Shown piece after piece: positions 1 through 42,657 of a DNA stretch of 42,657 bases (positions are counted from its first letter, which is position 1; each line of letters opens with the position of its first letter). The notes below the pieces were generated by a model that searched no databases, was not told the DNA's origin, and saw only the letters and a list, made by a program, of their open reading frames with translations. Source of the DNA: a virus; the IMG/VR virus record IMGVR_UViG_3300018476_000020, positions 1-42,657 of that record. One strand, 5' to 3'. The translations under genes were made by a program, and so were the position numbers.

Positions 1-123
1 GCTTTTTCGTAGTCCTTATGCTTAATTGCCATGCGCGCTTCTTTGAGGCTGACATAGTTACCGGTATAAGGTCCGAAAAGATTAAGGAGCTCGATACTCG
101 TCGGATGCATACTCTCAACATCC
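1..123. repeat. Left copy of 123-bp terminal direct repeat
   Basis: Bases 1-123 match bases 42535-42657 exactly. Joining the copies gives a 42,534-bp circle and restores a single open frame for the replication protein (2918 + 802 = 3720 nt, divisible by 3). A perfect overlap of this length is typical of assembling a circular or circularly permuted molecule. A true short terminal repeat cannot be excluded from sequence alone. Confidence 0.95.
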
Positions 124-2918
124 AAAAGTGCCACGTCTTCGTAAATTCCAGGTTCGGAGTAAACGTATCCACCCTCACCGGGTGATTCCCCACGGTAAGA
201 ACTCTCGTTTCCTTCATGTGTGTATCCCTTGAAGTCTTTGCTCAAGTCTGTATAAACGAAGACCTTTTGAGGATTCCTATCCTCCCCAAATATGATCTTC
301 GATGTATGTGCCTGAGTAGTATGATTAACAGACAGGCCCGACATCTCAGCAAGAATTTGCCGTGCTACGAAATCCTGCTTCCGAGCTTCAAACACCTTCT
401 CGGTCGCAGAAACATCATTCGCACAGTAATCTTCTACCTTTGACCACATTTCTTCCGGAACCGGTTGGTCCCACGGAAGATCGAGCTCCATGTGATGGAT
501 ACCTAGCTCAATTTGAAACTTCTTCAAGCCCTGCTTCTTCGAGCTGAAGTCGTAAATATCCGCATAGGAGAGGTTGTAGGCCTCCCCGAACAACACCTTG
601 TTATCATTTCCACCGTTGATGATCCTCTGGCTGAGGTTGTAGAGGTCCTCGAGAGACCAACCAAGGTACCGAGCATAGAGAATATGATTGTCGTATCGAC
701 GATTGTTGAATCCGACAAGCCTCTGGGCAAGGAGATCCTCAAGATCATCGCTGGTTGGGTTGATCATCCTAACAACTTCGCCATCTCCCTCAGTCTTCCA
801 ACACACAATGAAGAGGTTGGGATATACCTCAACATCGAAGAAGACCAAAAGCTTGTCAGACATGATGTCAGGTTCTAGCATCTTCTGACCGACGAACTTC
901 ATGTCTTGAACCATCTTGATACATTGAATAGATTGGTTCGAGCTCTTCGCCGCAAATGTCAGAATAACCGAACGCATGTCCTCAACATCGTAGGACAACC
1001 CTTCGTTGTAGGCATCTTCCAAGATCTTGTGGATGAAATCGATTGAGGGCTTCGTTCCTGGATGAATCTCCTTACGAAGATTCCGATCAATCAGATCACG
1101 AAGTCCCTTTTCGCTCTTGACCGCCTTGTTATCAAGCACCTTCTTGTCTCTTTTCGGTAGACCACCGTTCAACGGGGTTATGTTTACATTGTTGCTTTTG
1201 GTTACCAACCTTCGAAGAGAACTATCCCCAAGAAGGGACTTGATTTCAATACCCACATCATAGATCGATGCCAACTCACTCACGTCTTCGTTGTAAATAT
1301 AATGAAGATGTAAGCCCTGTCCACTCTTGCTGAGTTCGGCATACGTAGGTGGCCACTTCAAGGCTTCGCGAATATTAACCTCGAGACTCTTTTTGCCATC
1401 TTCGTCCGTTAGATCGAAGTCGATGACAATATGATTCTCTGGTACCTTGACGTAATGAAGCCTTGTAGTGTCCAATTCTGACAACGTCGTACTGACATTC
1501 TCCCACTTCTTGGTAGGAGTACCATCCTTCTTTGCATACTGAGCAGGCAGGAAAGCACCTACGGTATCAAAATGAGACGGTCCTTCTTCTAGAACAAGCC
1601 AATCGCCATTGATCTTCACTGAGATCTCAGGAGTAGGAACATGCACTAGATTCTTGAAGCCTGTGTAATATGATCGCACCTCGACTCCTTCTACACGATA
1701 CCGCTCATGGAACTCATCGAAATAATTCTTGAGCTCCTCACGTAGCTTGTACCTAGGAAGAACCCGATCGATACCAGTCTCAGAGCAGAACTCCTTGTAT
1801 AGGGCATATGCTCTAGCGACACTGATTCCATCAGCCGCCTTGAATATGTCGTACGTAGCTTCTACAAAATTGTAGAAGGTGTCGGTTTGCAGCATCATCT
1901 CGGTTGGTCGGTAAGCACTGTAGTAGTTCTTACCCATTTCCGAATATCGATCGAGACAATGCTGTGCGATAGCACCTAGTTCGAAATCTATCTGGTCCAT
2001 GAGAATATGATACGAGTCGTGATCAATGGTCTTCTGAGTAGGAATCACGTCGATGAGACGTCTGATGATTCCTGATTTTGCGTCAGAGATCTTGACCGCA
2101 ACGTTCGTACCCATGAATAAGAATGAATTCGACTTCATTTCAAACGGCGTCTTGTACTTCTCATTGATGGTCATACTCTCATGAGCTACGATCGAATTAA
2201 GTTTTGTGTTATCGTAAATTCTTGAGAGATCGCCGTCGTGCTGAATCGCAACCAGAGGGTTGGACTTAAACGCACCTGTAGCGAACGAGTTGTTTGATCC
2301 CGCCAACTCTCGTGCGTCAAAGATACTCGTATACCCCTGGAATAGCTTTTGTATGATGTTGAGGATAGTGGACTTACCACTACCAGGAGGACCATAAAAG
2401 ACCAGAAACTTCTGGATCTGCTTTGAGTCTCCGCTAATAACTGCACCGATCGCCCACTCGATCTTGCGCCTTTCCTCTTCGTTATACAAGGTACCGACAA
2501 TCGTATCCCAGGCATCATACGCTCCTTTGTTAAGAGAATATGGGAGTCTGCGACTGACATGATCAGCCTTCTTTACTTCTGTATCAGCAAACGTCAGCTT
2601 TTCATCTAAAGGATGACTGTTGTTCCCACTATTCCGCAAATATCGCTGAAACTCATCCCAGAGCTTCGTGCTATTGGACTCCAACGATGCAACCTTGTGG
2701 GGAAATCCTTGCTTGGTTGCGTATTCGTTGAGATCCTTGTCTACCAATCTTTGAACATCGTAAATGTCGGTCGACCAGAGGCCTTTCTCTTCATCCCAAA
2801 TTGCATAGAATGAGCCGCCACGAGTCATAAGGTCCTTCGATCGACCAACTCTCCAATCTGGACGGATCTGTAGATCACCATTCTTCTTCTCAACAGTGAC
2901 GATGTTGTAGAAGTCCAC
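1..2918 (-). CDS. SF3 helicase-primase-family B DNA polymerase fusion, N-terminal part (runs off window start)
   Basis: GTG start at 2918 with AAGGGGG five bases upstream. The frame is open to base 1 and continues at 42534 down to 41733, 1239 aa in all. Domains by residue: an unassigned N-terminus (1-120); D5N/SF3 helicase with Walker A GPPGSGKST (176-184), an acidic B-like stretch VAIQHDGD (223-230), sensor FLFMGTN (266-272) and an RR pair (286-287); a winged-helix-like region (about 340-425); a primase-like (AEP) domain with IVIDFD (497-502), SKSGQGLH (530-537) and GIEIK (556-560); a 3'-5' exonuclease with DVE (695-697), NNRRYD (738-743) and YCAND (831-835); and polymerase motif A, DVESMHP (933-939). 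It should unwind, prime and copy phage DNA in one polypeptide. Helicase and polymerase calls are firm. The primase call rests on three short motifs. The helicase-first order is unlike the usual primpol-helicase order. Confidence 0.85.
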   Translation of the reverse strand, partial: MDFYNIVTVEKKNGDLQIRPDWRVGRSKDLMTRGGSFYAIWDEEKGLWSTDIYDVQRLVDKDLNEYATKQGFPHKVASLESNSTKLWDEFQRYLRNSGNNSHPLDEKLTFADTEVKKADHVSRRLPYSLNKGAYDAWDTIVGTLYNEEERRKIEWAIGAVISGDSKQIQKFLVFYGPPGSGKSTILNIIQKLFQGYTSIFDARELAGSNNSFATGAFKSNPLVAIQHDGDLSRIYDNTKLNSIVAHESMTINEKYKTPFEMKSNSFLFMGTNVAVKISDAKSGIIRRLIDVIPTQKTIDHDSYHILMDQIDFELGAIAQHCLDRYSEMGKNYYSAYRPTEMMLQTDTFYNFVEATYDIFKAADGISVARAYALYKEFCSETGIDRVLPRYKLREELKNYFDEFHERYRVEGVEVRSYYTGFKNLVHVPTPEISVKINGDWLVLEEGPSHFDTVGAFLPAQYAKKDGTPTKKWENVSTTLSELDTTRLHYVKVPENHIVIDFDLTDEDGKKSLEVNIREALKWPPTYAELSKSGQGLHLHYIYNEDVSELASIYDVGIEIKSLLGDSSLRRLVTKSNNVNITPLNGGLPKRDKKVLDNKAVKSEKGLRDLIDRNLRKEIHPGTKPSIDFIHKILEDAYNEGLSYDVEDMRSVILTFAAKSSNQSIQCIKMVQDMKFVGQKMLEPDIMSDKLLVFFDVEVYPNLFIVCWKTEGDGEVVRMINPTSDDLEDLLAQRLVGFNNRRYDNHILYARYLGWSLEDLYNLSQRIINGGNDNKVLFGEAYNLSYADIYDFSSKKQGLKKFQIELGIHHMELDLPWDQPVPEEMWSKVEDYCANDVSATEKVFEARKQDFVARQILAEMSGLSVNHTTQAHTSKIIFGEDRNPQKVFVYTDLSKDFKGYTHEGNESSYRGESPGEGGYVYSEPGIYEDVALLDVESMHPTSIELLNLFGPYTGNYVSLKEARMAIKHKDYEK

Positions 2919-4328: not shown

Positions 4329-5225
4329 CTAGATTTTGTCGAAGATAACTCCATCAACATTGAAGTCGAGGAGAATGGACCGTTCATCACCGTTCACAAA
4401 GTTGGAGCTTCCAACATCGTACATTCCGAAGTCAACGAAATTATCGCCTTCGTCATTGAGTACCCATCCAACAACAGCACCTGCCTGTGAATGATCAAAC
4501 CCAAGAAGCTCATACACCTCGTTGAGGAAAATATGACCTCGGACTTGTAGAGTGTTGTTGGCATGAGACTGCTGACAAGTCACGAACAACTTGTTGATTT
4601 CAGCATTCTTCTCCCAGTTGACGTTGTACTCGTCAAATATCCTTGCATACATCGAGTACTTACTTGGATCACCAACGACAGGAAGAAGGCCGGTGTCTTT
4701 ACCCTTCTCGTCCTTCTCTACCACATACCTTTCGTGGTTCTGATAGATCTCAAGCTCTGTGTCTTCGCCGATTTCCTTCGCGACTGCCTCACGATACTTG
4801 GAATATGCTTCAGTAACGGCAACAACGGTAGCGGTCAGAGCTGCGTTACGACGCGTCAGGGAAACGTGCGAGCCGGTGAGTGCTGCAATAGAGAGAGCTC
4901 CAAGCGCAACGGAAGGAGCATACAGCTTCACAACGGCAATGGTGTTCTTCCCGTAAACATACGCCATGTCCTTCTGATACTGAGTGGCGTCGTAGTTGCT
5001 GCTGCTACCATCCTTGACGTCCTTGCCGAGCCCTTTCACCTGCTCGATGTCCTCGTTGAATGTGTTCATGGTGTCAGACAACTTTAGAGTTGCCCTGCAC
5101 GCCAGAACGGTCGTCCCCACGAATCCAACAATTCCTCCAGCAAAGAAAATATGCGGAGAATCTTTCTTGATGGTTAGCGCCTGACGAGCTACGGACCTAA
5201 CTAGTGTATTTGGAATCAGTTTCAC
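4329..5225 (-). CDS. Two-TM membrane protein, DUF6353-like, copy 1
   Basis: 298 aa. GTG start with AAGGAG upstream, overlapping the previous stop. There are two hydrophobic spans, near residues 27-45 (IFFAGGIVGFVGTTVLAC) and 105-120 (APSVALGALSIAALTG), each with a basic flank, then an amphipathic helix with YSKYREAVAKEIGED and a long soluble C-terminus. The protein at 6601-7356 has the same plan and the related string FSEYREKVVEQIGEN, so they are paralogs. I link them to the phage family DUF6353 from memory. Function unknown. They probably sit in the host inner membrane early in infection. Confidence 0.65.
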   Translation of the reverse strand: MKLIPNTLVRSVARQALTIKKDSPHIFFAGGIVGFVGTTVLACRATLKLSDTMNTFNEDIEQVKGLGKDVKDGSSSNYDATQYQKDMAYVYGKNTIAVVKLYAPSVALGALSIAALTGSHVSLTRRNAALTATVVAVTEAYSKYREAVAKEIGEDTELEIYQNHERYVVEKDEKGKDTGLLPVVGDPSKYSMYARIFDEYNVNWEKNAEINKLFVTCQQSHANNTLQVRGHIFLNEVYELLGFDHSQAGAVVGWVLNDEGDNFVDFGMYDVGSSNFVNGDERSILLDFNVDGVIFDKI

Positions 5226-6600: not shown

Positions 6601-7356
6601 TTAGATTGGCTTCACGTAATTGTATTCGAATGAGAGACAGGGCCTTCCGTCCTCTGTGAGGACTGTTGAGAACTTCAATTCCATAAGTTTGTCGGAATCC
6701 CAACCTACGTTTGTGGACTGTGTGGTAGCTGGCAGTCCGATCTGGTAGTAGAAATCGCTGAGCGGAACGTACAAGTCCTGTAGGATCTTGGCGTTAATAT
6801 CATTTTGAGCCTTGCGTAACGTCTCCATGTCGCTCTCGAAATATCGCTTCGTGTACATCTCGCAACACAGGACATTGCCTGATCCCGTTATGATGACCTC
6901 ACTGCTTTTAGGAGGATTAGCAAGGACGCGATCTTGAGCGACTTCGTCACGTAGCTTCTGTTCCTTGTTTTCTCCGATTTGCTCAACAACCTTCTCTCGA
7001 TACTCAGAGAATGCCCGTTCTGTAAGCGTATACGCACCTGCAGCGGCTGCCGTTCGCCTGGCATTGACTCCCGAGGCTCCGATAATGCATGCCACAGTTG
7101 CGGTTCCGGAGAGGCCCACTGGAATATAAAGCTGCCAAACGAGGTTCGCCCGATGCTTGAATCGTTCCTTTGGGTCCGAGATAATCCCATTCTTGCTCTC
7201 CTCATTCTCGATGATACGAGCAGCCTTGTATGATGCCGCTCCTGCCAAATATGCGGTAGTGACAGTACCCGCTACACCAAGTGCAGTGAGAATCGTTGGC
7301 GTGTTCCTTCGTAGAAACTTCTCAGTGTTTCCTAGAATTTGATTAAGCTCCATCAT
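6601..7356 (-). CDS. Two-TM membrane protein, DUF6353-like, copy 2
   Basis: 251 aa, beginning with two consecutive ATG codons. The start immediately follows the stop of a 27-residue peptide, so it is probably translated by coupling, with GGAG about ten bases upstream. Hydrophobic spans lie near residues 18-42 (TPTILTALGVAGTVTTAYLA) and 75-95 (LYIPVGLSGTATVACIIGA). They are followed by AFSEYREKVVEQIGENKEQK and a soluble C-terminal domain. It parallels the 298-aa protein at 4329-5225 in order, span spacing and the YREKV/YREAV helix, so the two are diverged paralogs. Function unknown. Confidence 0.65.
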   Translation of the reverse strand: MMELNQILGNTEKFLRRNTPTILTALGVAGTVTTAYLAGAASYKAARIIENEESKNGIISDPKERFKHRANLVWQLYIPVGLSGTATVACIIGASGVNARRTAAAAGAYTLTERAFSEYREKVVEQIGENKEQKLRDEVAQDRVLANPPKSSEVIITGSGNVLCCEMYTKRYFESDMETLRKAQNDINAKILQDLYVPLSDFYYQIGLPATTQSTNVGWDSDKLMELKFSTVLTEDGRPCLSFEYNYVKPI

Positions 7357-32203: not shown

Positions 32204-34879
32204 TCAACCAAGAGTAGCAACGTCAAGCGTTGTCAATGATACACCAAGCTGCTCTGCTATGTCAGCTCTATCATAGCCTAGTGCTAGCATGTGTAGTGCA
32301 CGCTTAGTCTTAGCTGACGTCATTAGCTTAGCCTTGGGTGGAGTAGCCAACTCTTTGATTCTATCTAGGTCTGCGTTGTCTAGTATCTCTTTGAGCTTGC
32401 TGTTACTGATAGCGCCTGCTTGAATAGCTTCCCATTCCTTATCAGTAATGTCTACTCTAAACTTCTGTGCACCAGTGCGCACTCTTGCCTCAGCTAGGGC
32501 ACGATACCTTTCCTTCTTCTTTGTATCATTGTCCATCTGTGGATTCGCATTGATCTTAGCTCTTAGTATTGTGTTACCAACTACTTGTGCTTGCCTCTCT
32601 AGGGGCTTGTTCTTTATGGCCCGGTCTAATTTGTGGGTGAGGGAGTCAACTTCAGTCTTGTATGCCGCTTTAGCAGAGGCATCTTGTTTGATACCGGGGG
32701 TATTAAAAGCCTCTAGCCTAGCCGCATTAGCCATGGCCTTGAGCCTGTTGGAATGGTTGGCATAGATGCGCTCTACCTGGGTGTTAGCAGTGGACACCAG
32801 TGCATGGGCATCTGATTCAATGGCCAGCCACTTTACTTTCTCCTGCTTGGGTACTCGTTCACCCTTCCTATTGGTAGTTGTCTTACCACTGGGCTCATAC
32901 TTAAGTTCACCAGTGTTGACATCAATAGGACCACCTAGCTTAGAAGTCCTAGGCTTTCTTAAATCAATACGGACATCCTTACCAGCCCTAGAAAGAAGCG
33001 TTGCTGCACCAGCATTAGAGCGCCCTTGATACTCTGCCTTAAGCTTAGCTATGTTGTTTCTTCTTTCAGATTCCTTGAAGTTCAGCTTATGCTTGTGTGC
33101 ATCAATGACTACCATCGAATGACGAACTGCCCTAACCATGTGTTCTGGTGGGGCACCCTTGATTGTCATGTCGGTGATGAGGTTGGAGATCTTACCCATC
33201 TCTTGCTGGGTTCTCTTCTTTGACATCACCTCCATTCCATCATACCCTTTGTATTCCTCATGTGGTTTGAAGTTCTTCAAACCTTCCAAGGCTGGAGAAG
33301 CCTTGATCCTACCTTTGCCATTCGGTATGACCAGGACGGTATCACCATCAAAGTCTGCGCCTGACAATCTCTCAGCAACACTATGATGAATACCAACAGC
33401 ATGCTTGGCATCACGAAGAAGACGCTTGGCTTGAGGGTTGCGGTTGTTGACGGTTAGTTCTGGAATCTCAAACGTACCACCATGTGGATAACGAATGAGC
33501 GCAACTCTTTCTCCTGCCTCGAAACCAGGTGCGTAAATCTCAGTAGGACGCATCTTTGTGATTGGCAAGATAGCACGCCAGCTTTGACGAGGGAAAGACG
33601 CAGCCTCTAGGTGAACTGCTGAGGCATCGGTTCCATCAGCAAAGGCCTCAAGCAACCTCTTCCTAACCGTAGGGTTGGTCAACGCCTTTATGCTATCCAA
33701 CTCACCCTTACGGTTCTCGAATGTCATGTCGAGCTGTGCTTTAGCAAGGGCGGGGGATTGTTTTGACAACATCTGTGCCGAAACATTCTTACCCCACTTA
33801 GACCAATCGCCTTCTTCATTGACGATGTTCATAACTGAGGTAAGTTTATCCTTACCGTTCTTACCAGTGACTACGATTTGACGAGCGATGTTCGCTCCAA
33901 ATGGATTCTCTGCTTCGGCGTGTGGTTCAACCTTCTTCAAAACATCCATTTTACTAACATCGTGCCCTTTGTCTGTATGAAAGAGAACATCAATCCCATC
34001 CGGCATGTCATGATGATACATGGCCATGCCCTTGAGATATCGATCCTTTCCAACTAGAACACGAACCTGAGCATATCGAGATTGGCCAAGAGAAATATCC
34101 TCTACGCCTTCTCTAACATACATCACTCCATCAGATTTGCTACCACCATCAGGACCATAAACAATCCCAACTCGCTTCGGATCAAGAGACATTGGGGGTT
34201 GAAGCCGATGCTTTGTTTTGCCACCATCCTCAGACCACTGCCCAGTCTGTTGAATTTTGTCTCGATTCATCCAAGCTTGTTTTTGTGTGGTTACATCTGG
34301 AGTACAAAGAACTTTCATTCGAGTGTCTTTGCCTGTTCCAAGCTGTGGAACATTAACTGGCCAAACCTTGTACCCCTCTTGCTTAAGTATTTCAACCGCA
34401 GTCCTAAGTCTTTCTTGACTTACTCCAATTCTATTCTCTACCCCAACGCCAATATCAAGATACTTCTTCGAGTCAACTTCTTCACGAAGCAAGTCGGCTA
34501 TAGTTGAAAGACGATCGTTCTTTTCCTTAGCACCTGGAGCAAGAAGCGTACGAACAGTAGGCTCAGGAATTCCCATGTGTCGACCAATTGCCGAAGGTCC
34601 CCAACCCTTATCCTTCAAGGCCCACGCTTGATTGATCTGAGACTGCTTCCTTTCGTTCCTAGCAATTGTTTTTCTAGCTCGATACTCTGTGCTAGAAATC
34701 TTCATTGCCCTGAAGATCTCTGAGTCGTTCATTCCTTCGCCCTTGAGCTGTTGAATGAACCCTAGAAAATCTTCGTTATTGGTGTCGGCATTCAATCCAC
34801 CAGATCCCCAAGGATATCTTCCAGACTTACGAGGCGTACCAAAGTGCGCCAAATAATCTTCTTCGTTTATGGTTACCAA
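32204..34879 (-). CDS. DFDGD-motif RNA polymerase-like protein (YonO-like), possibly virion-carried
   Basis: 891 aa. TTG start with GAAGGAGGCAGACCG upstream, overlapping the previous gene by seven bases. Residues 505-513 read LSGADFDGD, the metal-binding motif of the beta-prime subunit of cellular RNA polymerases and of single-subunit phage relatives such as YonO and crAss-like virion polymerases. A possible first barrel, EIYAPGFEAGERVALIRYPH, precedes it. The N-terminus starts EDYLAHFGTPRKSGRYPWGS, a tag also seen on phage virion proteins. HTH-like helices lie at about 45-115 and in the last 30 residues (GYDRADIAEQLGVSLTTLD). I infer an RNA polymerase carried in the capsid. The second barrel's residues cannot be confirmed by eye. 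Confidence 0.75.
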   Translation of the reverse strand: MVTINEEDYLAHFGTPRKSGRYPWGSGGLNADTNNEDFLGFIQQLKGEGMNDSEIFRAMKISSTEYRARKTIARNERKQSQINQAWALKDKGWGPSAIGRHMGIPEPTVRTLLAPGAKEKNDRLSTIADLLREEVDSKKYLDIGVGVENRIGVSQERLRTAVEILKQEGYKVWPVNVPQLGTGKDTRMKVLCTPDVTTQKQAWMNRDKIQQTGQWSEDGGKTKHRLQPPMSLDPKRVGIVYGPDGGSKSDGVMYVREGVEDISLGQSRYAQVRVLVGKDRYLKGMAMYHHDMPDGIDVLFHTDKGHDVSKMDVLKKVEPHAEAENPFGANIARQIVVTGKNGKDKLTSVMNIVNEEGDWSKWGKNVSAQMLSKQSPALAKAQLDMTFENRKGELDSIKALTNPTVRKRLLEAFADGTDASAVHLEAASFPRQSWRAILPITKMRPTEIYAPGFEAGERVALIRYPHGGTFEIPELTVNNRNPQAKRLLRDAKHAVGIHHSVAERLSGADFDGDTVLVIPNGKGRIKASPALEGLKNFKPHEEYKGYDGMEVMSKKRTQQEMGKISNLITDMTIKGAPPEHMVRAVRHSMVVIDAHKHKLNFKESERRNNIAKLKAEYQGRSNAGAATLLSRAGKDVRIDLRKPRTSKLGGPIDVNTGELKYEPSGKTTTNRKGERVPKQEKVKWLAIESDAHALVSTANTQVERIYANHSNRLKAMANAARLEAFNTPGIKQDASAKAAYKTEVDSLTHKLDRAIKNKPLERQAQVVGNTILRAKINANPQMDNDTKKKERYRALAEARVRTGAQKFRVDITDKEWEAIQAGAISNSKLKEILDNADLDRIKELATPPKAKLMTSAKTKRALHMLALGYDRADIAEQLGVSLTTLDVATLG

Positions 34880-36532: not shown

Positions 36533-37708
36533 TCACAATTCTCCACCCTCAGTAATGAACTTCTTCTCGTTGAAACTGCGCTTTTGGCCCAAGCTCTTCC
36601 TTACGGACAGGTCGATGGTCGAATTTGACGTAAGCATGTAGTAGTACAAAACATCGAATTCAGTGTCCAATCTGTCGATTCTGCCCTGTGCCTGGACGAA
36701 ATTCTTGTACGAATACGTCAAGGAATACAGAATCATGGCGTTGGTAGACGTGCAATTCCACGCTTCTGCCCCAGCAACGTACTGTACGAGATATACCCAC
36801 CTGTCCTCTTGAGGCACCGGGTCTTTCTGATGACCATTCCATTCGAATACGCCTATGTACCGGCTCAGACTTCTCAGGATCTCTAGCTCGTAGTTGAAAT
36901 TGTAGAAAATTACCAATCTTGGGTGACACTTCATCAAACAATGGACCATCTCCAATCGCGAGGGGTCTGTATTTACTACCTTACGCATTACACGGAACAT
37001 CTCAGATATGTCCTTGAGCGGCCTGTCCTCATAGACGTGCCATCGATTCTTGACTACCTGTGTGTAGAGGGATTCGTCATAGCTCACGTCCATCCAGTTC
37101 GTGTTCTTTGTGGTGTGCTTGAGATATGGCATCTCCACCAGGACCTCATTACGCAACAACTCGAGCTTACTCTCGTTGATGTAGCCCTTGACCTTCGGGT
37201 ACTTGGCAAAGGCCTCGTAGATAACGTGCTTCCACTTGAATTCGGTGATGTTCTTGTAGTATCCATTGGCGATGAATATGGGAGCATAGTCAAGCCATAC
37301 GTCACCTGGAGTAGCAGTGAGTAATATCCAGGGATTGTTGCGTGCGATCTTGATGAATGATTTCACCCAAGAACCCGTACCGACAACCCTCTGCTCATCG
37401 AATATGAAGAAGGTGTTTGTGTACTCGGTGTACTTACCTATGTTGTTCCACGAGTCCACGAATATGGTCCCATGGACAGTTGCATCCTCCTCAGCACCAA
37501 TACCGAACTTTGCGGCCTCTCCCTGCCAATCTAGAGTGTCACGCTTCTTAGCTGTCGTAATGACGACGATGTTGTGATCGGACAGATTCTCCACGTACCA
37601 TGCGAGAACCGTCATAGACTTTCCTGCACCTACACCACCCCAGAGAACCTTACCGCTCGAGAGGTGTTCGATTGCTGCCTTCTGATGAGGCATTAACTCT
37701 ACAGCCAT
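36533..37708 (-). CDS. SF2 (SNF2-like) DNA helicase
   Basis: 391 aa. ATG with AAGGAGATTAT upstream. Motifs in order: Q-like PHQKAAIEHLSSGKVLWGG, Walker A GGVGAGKS (about residues 24-31), DEQR box in FFIFDEQRVV, motif III LLTATPGD, and motif VI QAQGRIDRLD. The protein is short for an SNF2 family member but keeps both RecA-like lobes. It should move on or unwind DNA in replication or recombination. A terminator lies 11 bases before the start. Confidence 0.9.
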   Translation of the reverse strand: MAVELMPHQKAAIEHLSSGKVLWGGVGAGKSMTVLAWYVENLSDHNIVVITTAKKRDTLDWQGEAAKFGIGAEEDATVHGTIFVDSWNNIGKYTEYTNTFFIFDEQRVVGTGSWVKSFIKIARNNPWILLTATPGDVWLDYAPIFIANGYYKNITEFKWKHVIYEAFAKYPKVKGYINESKLELLRNEVLVEMPYLKHTTKNTNWMDVSYDESLYTQVVKNRWHVYEDRPLKDISEMFRVMRKVVNTDPSRLEMVHCLMKCHPRLVIFYNFNYELEILRSLSRYIGVFEWNGHQKDPVPQEDRWVYLVQYVAGAEAWNCTSTNAMILYSLTYSYKNFVQAQGRIDRLDTEFDVLYYYMLTSNSTIDLSVRKSLGQKRSFNEKKFITEGGEL

Positions 37709-41198: not shown

Positions 41199-41723
41199 TC
41201 AATCCTGTTCCATGAGTTCGTTTGCCTGGTACTTGCGCTCCAAAGCATCTTCTCGAATCGTCACGAACATCGTTTGAAGATAGGCCTTGAGCATTACTTT
41301 TCCTTGCGTCTCGTGTCGATAGGATCGGCAAATAAGATCAACAGTTTCCATGTCAACCCAATCCAAGATCTCGACAGTATCTTCCGTTAGATTTGTACGA
41401 CCGGCAGAGGTGATCATGACAATGCGAGGAGGACGAACATCCCATCGTGCTTCCACAGGAACATACGGGCGTTCAAGATTGATCATGTCTCCAGGCTTTG
41501 CGTTTGGCCTTGGATCGGGAACAATATGCGGTCCTTCTTCGCCTGGCTGCGCCTTGTGAAACTTGACGTTCCAATGATCGTTCATCATCGGCTCTACCAC
41601 TTCGACGTCAATATCAACACAGAAGGTCTTCTGACCTTCACGGTTGTACATCCCTTCCTTACCTTTGAAATTCAGCCAGTTGAGGGTAGCATCATCAACC
41701 TGAAATGTCTTTGGTTGGTCCAT
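41199..41723 (-). CDS. Possible ssDNA-binding protein, OB-fold-like
   Basis: 174 aa. ATG with ATAAGGAGAAACG upstream. It reads TLNWLNFKGKEGMYNREGQK, TFCVDIDVEVVEPMMNDHWN, VRPPRIVMITSAGRTNLTED and DLICRSYRHETQGKVMLKAY. Beta-rich with a basic/acidic split and no catalytic motif. It follows directly after the replication fusion, the usual place of a phage single-stranded DNA-binding protein, and I recall this family labelled that way. The OB-fold assignment is inferred. Confidence 0.6.
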   Translation of the reverse strand: MDQPKTFQVDDATLNWLNFKGKEGMYNREGQKTFCVDIDVEVVEPMMNDHWNVKFHKAQPGEEGPHIVPDPRPNAKPGDMINLERPYVPVEARWDVRPPRIVMITSAGRTNLTEDTVEILDWVDMETVDLICRSYRHETQGKVMLKAYLQTMFVTIREDALERKYQANELMEQD

Positions 41724-41732
41724 CGTTTCTCC

Positions 41733-42657
41733 TTATGAAATAAGTTGTTCGTATGACCAGAGCTCTTCAATTGCCTTAACGGCGTCTACCTTCAATTTAC
41801 CGAAATATCGCATGTCAACGTCAAGCTCACCAATCTTTTCACGATTAGCAGCCATCTCACGCTCAATCCATTTATAACCCTTCGTCCCGGATACGTGATA
41901 GGATTTATCGTCTTTAACCCTGAACAGGTCTCCGCCACCGCTCAGAACTGGAACGAAACTTCCCGTGCGACCAACATGTCGCCAATCCTCAACTTTTAGC
42001 GATTCGTTGAATGCGAGATACATCGTCCCCTGCACGACGTTCTTCGTTTCACAATAATCATCGAACACGATAGGTTCATTGCTGAGAAGCGTCTTGAAGA
42101 CGTAAGGATGCTGGAACTGTGCGCCTACAGCAGTCCATTCGCCATTGGAACGAGCAATATAAACTGCATCGTTGACAAGGCAGAACTTCTCATATGTCTT
42201 TTCGTGCTCGAAGGTGTATCCGTACTTCGCCCCAAACTCCATAACGAATTTGATTATCTCAGGAGTCGCCCCGGGGATTTTTATAGAATCTGTTTTGATG
42301 TGTGCTACCGTGAAACCCTGTTCCTGAACGGCGTGCTTCAGGTCAATCATGAACAGAGCTCCGCGCTTCGCTACAATGTTGTCCTTGTTTCGATTATCCA
42401 AGAACATGTTGGGGAATTTCGCACTCGTCAAACCATATACGATATTGATGACGATCTTAAGAGCGTAGGAAAGAGCTTCAGCATCCTCAGGGCTACCCAG
42501 AAATTTTCCGAGCTTGCCGTCAAGCATGTTGCGGGCTTTTTCGTAGTCCTTATGCTTAATTGCCATGCGCGCTTCTTTGAGGCTGACATAGTTACCGGTA
42601 TAAGGTCCGAAAAGATTAAGGAGCTCGATACTCGTCGGATGCATACTCTCAACATCC
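41733..42657 (-). CDS. SF3 helicase-primase-family B DNA polymerase fusion, C-terminal part
   Basis: Completes the replication protein that starts at 2918 and wraps over the window join; its last 123 bases are shared with the window start. It supplies the polymerase catalytic core: motif A DVESMHPTS (D933 by whole-protein numbering), motif B KIVINIVYGL (K999, Y1006, G1007: K-x3-N-x2-YG), motif C IKTDS (D1055). A thumb-like end follows, and the protein stops at 41733. The family B assignment rests on the TDS triad, KxxxNxxYG and the exonuclease. The ssDNA-binding candidate follows ten bases later. Confidence 0.88.
   Translation of the reverse strand, partial: DVESMHPTSIELLNLFGPYTGNYVSLKEARMAIKHKDYEKARNMLDGKLGKFLGSPEDAEALSYALKIVINIVYGLTSAKFPNMFLDNRNKDNIVAKRGALFMIDLKHAVQEQGFTVAHIKTDSIKIPGATPEIIKFVMEFGAKYGYTFEHEKTYEKFCLVNDAVYIARSNGEWTAVGAQFQHPYVFKTLLSNEPIVFDDYCETKNVVQGTMYLAFNESLKVEDWRHVGRTGSFVPVLSGGGDLFRVKDDKSYHVSGTKGYKWIEREMAANREKIGELDVDMRYFGKLKVDAVKAIEELWSYEQLIS
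42535..42657. repeat. Right copy of 123-bp terminal direct repeat
   Basis: Identical to bases 1-123. Base 42535 of this window corresponds to base 1, and the sequence continues the frame of the replication protein. Confidence 0.95.

Follow-up and report, generated by a model that had tools for sequence, protein, structure and literature searches.

A further HelPrimPolB protein, uniting helicase, PrimPol, exonuclease and family B polymerase, encoded by a circularly permuted virus record

The IMG/VR virus record IMGVR_UViG_3300018476_000020 (42,657 bases, analyzed in full and referred to here as the window) encodes one further member of the HelPrimPolB group, an architecture that is real, already named and widespread. 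This protein very probably serves as the replicative HelPrimPolB in a tailed phage with affinity to actinobacterial siphophages, combining an SF3 helicase, a PrimPol, a 3'-5' exonuclease and a family B polymerase in one chain.

The record is circularly permuted. Since bases 1–123 are identical to bases 42535–42657, this exact 123-bp end repeat defines a circular map of 42,534 bases that is cut inside a gene. The gene lies on the minus strand, as do all features of this record described below, and its frame runs from a GTG at 2918 (preceded by GAAGGGGG) through the join to a TAA at 41735–41733. The first 972 codons are open within 1–2918, and the frame continues beyond the join from 42534 to 41733 (41733–42657 in the linear record, where 42535–42657 repeat 1–123). 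Translation of the circularized minus strand afforded 1239 codons before the TAA with neither stop nor shift, which confirms the single 1239-residue protein that the initial annotation had proposed. The remark that linear coordinates split this gene was also correct, but the expectation that automatic annotation would miss it was not, because a gene caller that works on the linear record and accepts incomplete genes would list the frame as two fragments.

All sequence motifs quoted in the initial annotation were found at the residues it had given: GPPGSGKST (176) and FLFMGTN (266) in the helicase part; IVIDFD (497), SKSGQGLH (530) and GIEIK (556) in the primase part; DVE (695), NNRRYD (738) and YCAND (831) in the exonuclease part; and DVESMHP (933), KIVINIVYG (999) and IKTDS (1052) in the polymerase part. 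PHROG 4210, a family of 1304 positions named DNA polymerase, matches the protein nearly end to end (1500 bits on residues 1–972 and 429 bits on the rest). Eleven residues (D500, D502, H537, E558, D695, E697, D743, D835, D933, N1003 and D1055) show no variation among 71 aligned members, and the same catalytic residues are all kept in RosaAsantewaa, ReqiPepy6 and the Lactococcus phages 1706 and P092. Given the PHROG 4210 scores and these invariant residues, we can eliminate chance as the origin of the pattern. Ten loci were left out of the 71-member alignment, namely nine whole fusions excluded by pattern for their GKGT Walker A motif and one locus (L073) that is cut by a contig end. A phmmer search of the window protein against PDB sequences gave nothing useful, and a search of the window with PF03175, run without a positive control, gave no match. 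Profiles, predicted folds and conserved motifs nevertheless agree on the proposed four-domain, helicase-first order, in which the helicase is recognized by profile.

The SF3 helicase of the D5/DUF5906 type occupies about residues 130–420 (1659–2531), as judged from Pfam, PHROGs and motif conservation, with the Walker A motif at 2393–2367. This N-terminal part matches PF19263 (DUF5906) with 51.3 bits (cut-off 27.6) and PF03288 (Pox_D5) with 22.0 bits (cut-off 21.4), two families that both occur in D5-like SF3 helicases, and also many PHROGs of phage primase-helicases. These profiles predict an SF3 helicase of the DUF5906/D5 type for the N-terminal part.

The archaeo-eukaryotic primase (PrimPol) domain was placed at about residues 444–600 (1119–1589), with the invariant residues D500 and D502 at 1421–1413, the SKSGQGLH motif containing H537 at 1331–1308 and E558 at 1247–1245. 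To the AlphaFold (AF2) model of residues 430–690 (mean pLDDT 89.8), Foldseek found ten PDB matches at E ≤ 0.001, all of them NrS-1 or pRN1-type PrimPols (best E values 1.2e-5 and 4.9e-5, respectively); the eleventh match was an unrelated non-PrimPol at E 0.56. The modest TM-scores of 0.30–0.40 indicate that this resemblance is specific yet loose over the whole segment. The Prim-Pol family PF09250 matches 43 of 68 relatives at E ≤ 0.1 (best 4.8e-4), the window protein's own segment has no confident Pfam match, and a PrimPol profile searched against PDB sequences gave chance matches only. The assignment is thus informed by the fold comparison and by the weak Pfam matches of the relatives. The initial annotation had staked its reading on a primase fold in the region 495–560, and the AF2 model and Foldseek are in accord with that fold. 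On the strength of this model, residues 430–690 are predicted to hold a PrimPol domain of the archaeo-eukaryotic primase fold. A helical segment follows the PrimPol core at about residues 601–670 (909–1118 by AF2 secondary structure).

The 3'-5' exonuclease domain, comprising the DVE, NNRRYD and YCAND motifs, spans about residues 690–890 (249–851) according to phrog_1252, phrog_403, the motifs and the fold of an orthologue. The motifs place the start of the polymerase domain at 1–221, with motif A (DVESMHP) at 122–102 by motif and alignment, and its C-terminal part lies across the join at 41736–42534 (motifs, profile and orthologue fold), with motif B (KIVINIVYG) at 42458–42432 and motif C (IKTDS) at 42299–42285. 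Since the record ends interrupt this part in the window, we modeled the exonuclease-polymerase of the orthologue from locus L001 (74% identity) instead. This model (mean pLDDT 89.5) best matches the family B polymerases 9N, E. coli Pol II and Pol alpha, with E values down to 5.7e-16 and modest TM-scores of about 0.4–0.5, and a profile search of the exonuclease-polymerase part found Pol II at 1.3e-7. By the fold of this orthologue, the C-terminal part is predicted to be a family B polymerase with a 3'-5' exonuclease.

Because the frame crosses the contig ends, the join of this metagenome contig rests on the 123-bp repeat, and an assembly artefact could have wrongly joined the ends of what are really two genes. 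The same span is, however, one uninterrupted ORF encoding the whole protein in 79 of 80 related viral loci, the remaining one being the truncated L073; identity across the join (residues 920–985) with eight close loci is 70–77%, no different from the level elsewhere; and the equivalent proteins of GenBank phages are encoded by single genes of 1275–1344 aa. With uninterrupted relatives and normal identity across the join, we rejected assembly error, the probability of which is close to nil. The PrimPol segment could likewise be a degenerate, non-catalytic spacer in a phage that relies on the host primase, as the missing Pfam match of the window's own segment and the moderate structural similarity would allow. 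Yet D500, D502, H537 and E558 are invariant in the 71 members and retained even in the Lactococcus phages, so that we consider such a spacer highly improbable.

The polymerase active site deserves a similar examination. Motif A reads [SA][ML]HP in 75 of 75 fused sequences aligned, and alignment to Pol II puts its His in the place of the Tyr that serves as steric gate in other family B polymerases. For phi29 polymerase, a single Tyr is described as the steric gate in the relevant passage of PMC11638069. Motif C is KTDS in every one of these 75 fused members, with Lys replacing the first Asp. With both of these positions exchanged, polymerase activity is not guaranteed, and the polymerase part might be inactivated or specialized, for example for lesion bypass, while the host polymerase does the bulk of synthesis. 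According to the pertinent sections of PMC7544198, the first motif C Asp is also absent from group B2 PolBs, weak enzymes that serve in lesion bypass. The same sections report, on the other hand, that primer-independent PolBs without this Asp polymerize efficiently; stand-alone phage relatives lack it as well (NTD, with Asn at this position), and neither D933 and D1055 nor the exonuclease residues vary. We therefore regard an inactive or specialized polymerase as unlikely. In the passages of Kazlauskas et al. 2020 on this group (PMC7544198), a discussion of the motif A His was not found. A tentative and rather doubtful idea is that the active site of the fused polymerase may have changed so as to accept primers made by the PrimPol of the same protein, for instance through altered ribonucleotide discrimination.

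The architecture itself is not new. The initial annotation had implied novelty for the helicase-first fusion while cautioning that close relatives may exist; the caution proved justified, and the novelty is contradicted by PHROG 4210, by at least 252 phage records and by a name given in 2020. In the passages concerned, Kazlauskas et al. 2020 gave the architecture its name, HelPrimPolB, with credit to an earlier 2016 paper, described it as a polymerase domain with an SF3 helicase and a PrimPol fused to its N-terminal side, placed it in the EpsilonN-like clade and called its motif C and KxY divergent (PMC7544198). The window protein shows the same arrangement, with an N-terminal SF3 helicase, the PrimPol before the polymerase, a C-terminal PolB with exonuclease and the same divergent motif C, and has no difference of substance from this group, as represented by PMC7544198 and PHROG 4210. 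Proteins with the same domain order, for which a search had been suggested, are present in the related loci and in GenBank phages. A translated search matched 389 phage records, at least 252 of which have one place covering ≥80% of the query. Among the near-full-length matches listed, most come from Gordonia, Arthrobacter and Streptomyces phages, and the usual annotation is DNA primase/polymerase or DNA polymerase. In cultured phages, relatives of full length range from 61% identity (RosaAsantewaa, ReqiPepy6) to 39–41% (Lactococcus P092, 1706); the nearest deposited phage proteins are about 59–61% identical and the nearest metagenomic protein 74%. RosaAsantewaa gp39 (Streptomyces phage, Scapunavirus; MK686072) has the same domain order in one ORF of 1275 aa, is annotated as DNA primase/polymerase in a 42.7 kb genome of similar size, and differs by sequence divergence only. 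The ReqiPepy6 record already annotates two domains, a primase-type one at the N-terminus and a PolB at the C-terminus.

The stand-alone PolBs of Listeria LP-083-1, Eggerthella EL753P1, Pseudomonas 73 and Enterococcus AL3 also combine an exonuclease with a compact PolB without the first motif C Asp. Unlike the fused protein, these four are separate genes and keep the motif A Tyr. The Listeria and Eggerthella genes adjoin a separate primase-helicase gene; in EL753P1 (L089:3624-7983), the two adjacent genes encode an AEP-SF3 protein, AEP motifs first, and a PolB, both annotated as hypothetical protein. The window protein shares the AEP fold and motifs with NrS-1 phage PrimPol and pRN1 ORF904, in which the PrimPol precedes the helicase and PolB and exonuclease are lacking. 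Since the window protein is helicase first and contains a PolB, we rejected its identity as an NrS-1/pRN1-type primase-helicase.

Other genes on the record were also inspected. An 891-aa protein (32204–34879, minus strand) has helix-turn-helix matches, a match to PHROG 4291 "RNA-dependent RNA polymerase" (1210 bits) and the sequence LSGADFDGDTV, which carries the DxDGD signature typical of double-psi beta-barrel RNA polymerases; the protein is possibly a single-chain RNA polymerase of the YonO type. Its counterpart by position in RosaAsantewaa, gp54, carries no annotation other than helix-turn-helix protein. Two phrog_2152 paralogues lie close together at 4329–5225 and 6601–7356 (minus strand), the first of which matches DUF6353. 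A 391-aa protein matching the phrog_62 DNA helicase (36533–37708, minus strand) adds another helicase to the replication region.

The next gene downstream of HelPrimPolB encodes a phage single-stranded-DNA-binding protein (41199–41723; PF24083, 141.7 bits; phrog_4787), which is its probable partner. By analogy to the respective families, the helicase part would form a ring and unwind the phage DNA, the PrimPol would lay primers on the exposed strand, and the polymerase part would take over these primers, handed off within or between subunits, and extend them. The exonuclease would proofread, and the single-stranded-DNA-binding protein would coat the single strand. We found no biochemical paper on the HelPrimPolB family in the open-access literature. 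With the architecture named and widespread, the value of this member as a discovery is small. As a predicted single-chain replisome, however, it would permit joint assays of helicase, primase and proofreading polymerase, and the family-wide His and Lys substitutions allow a direct test of nucleotide selection.
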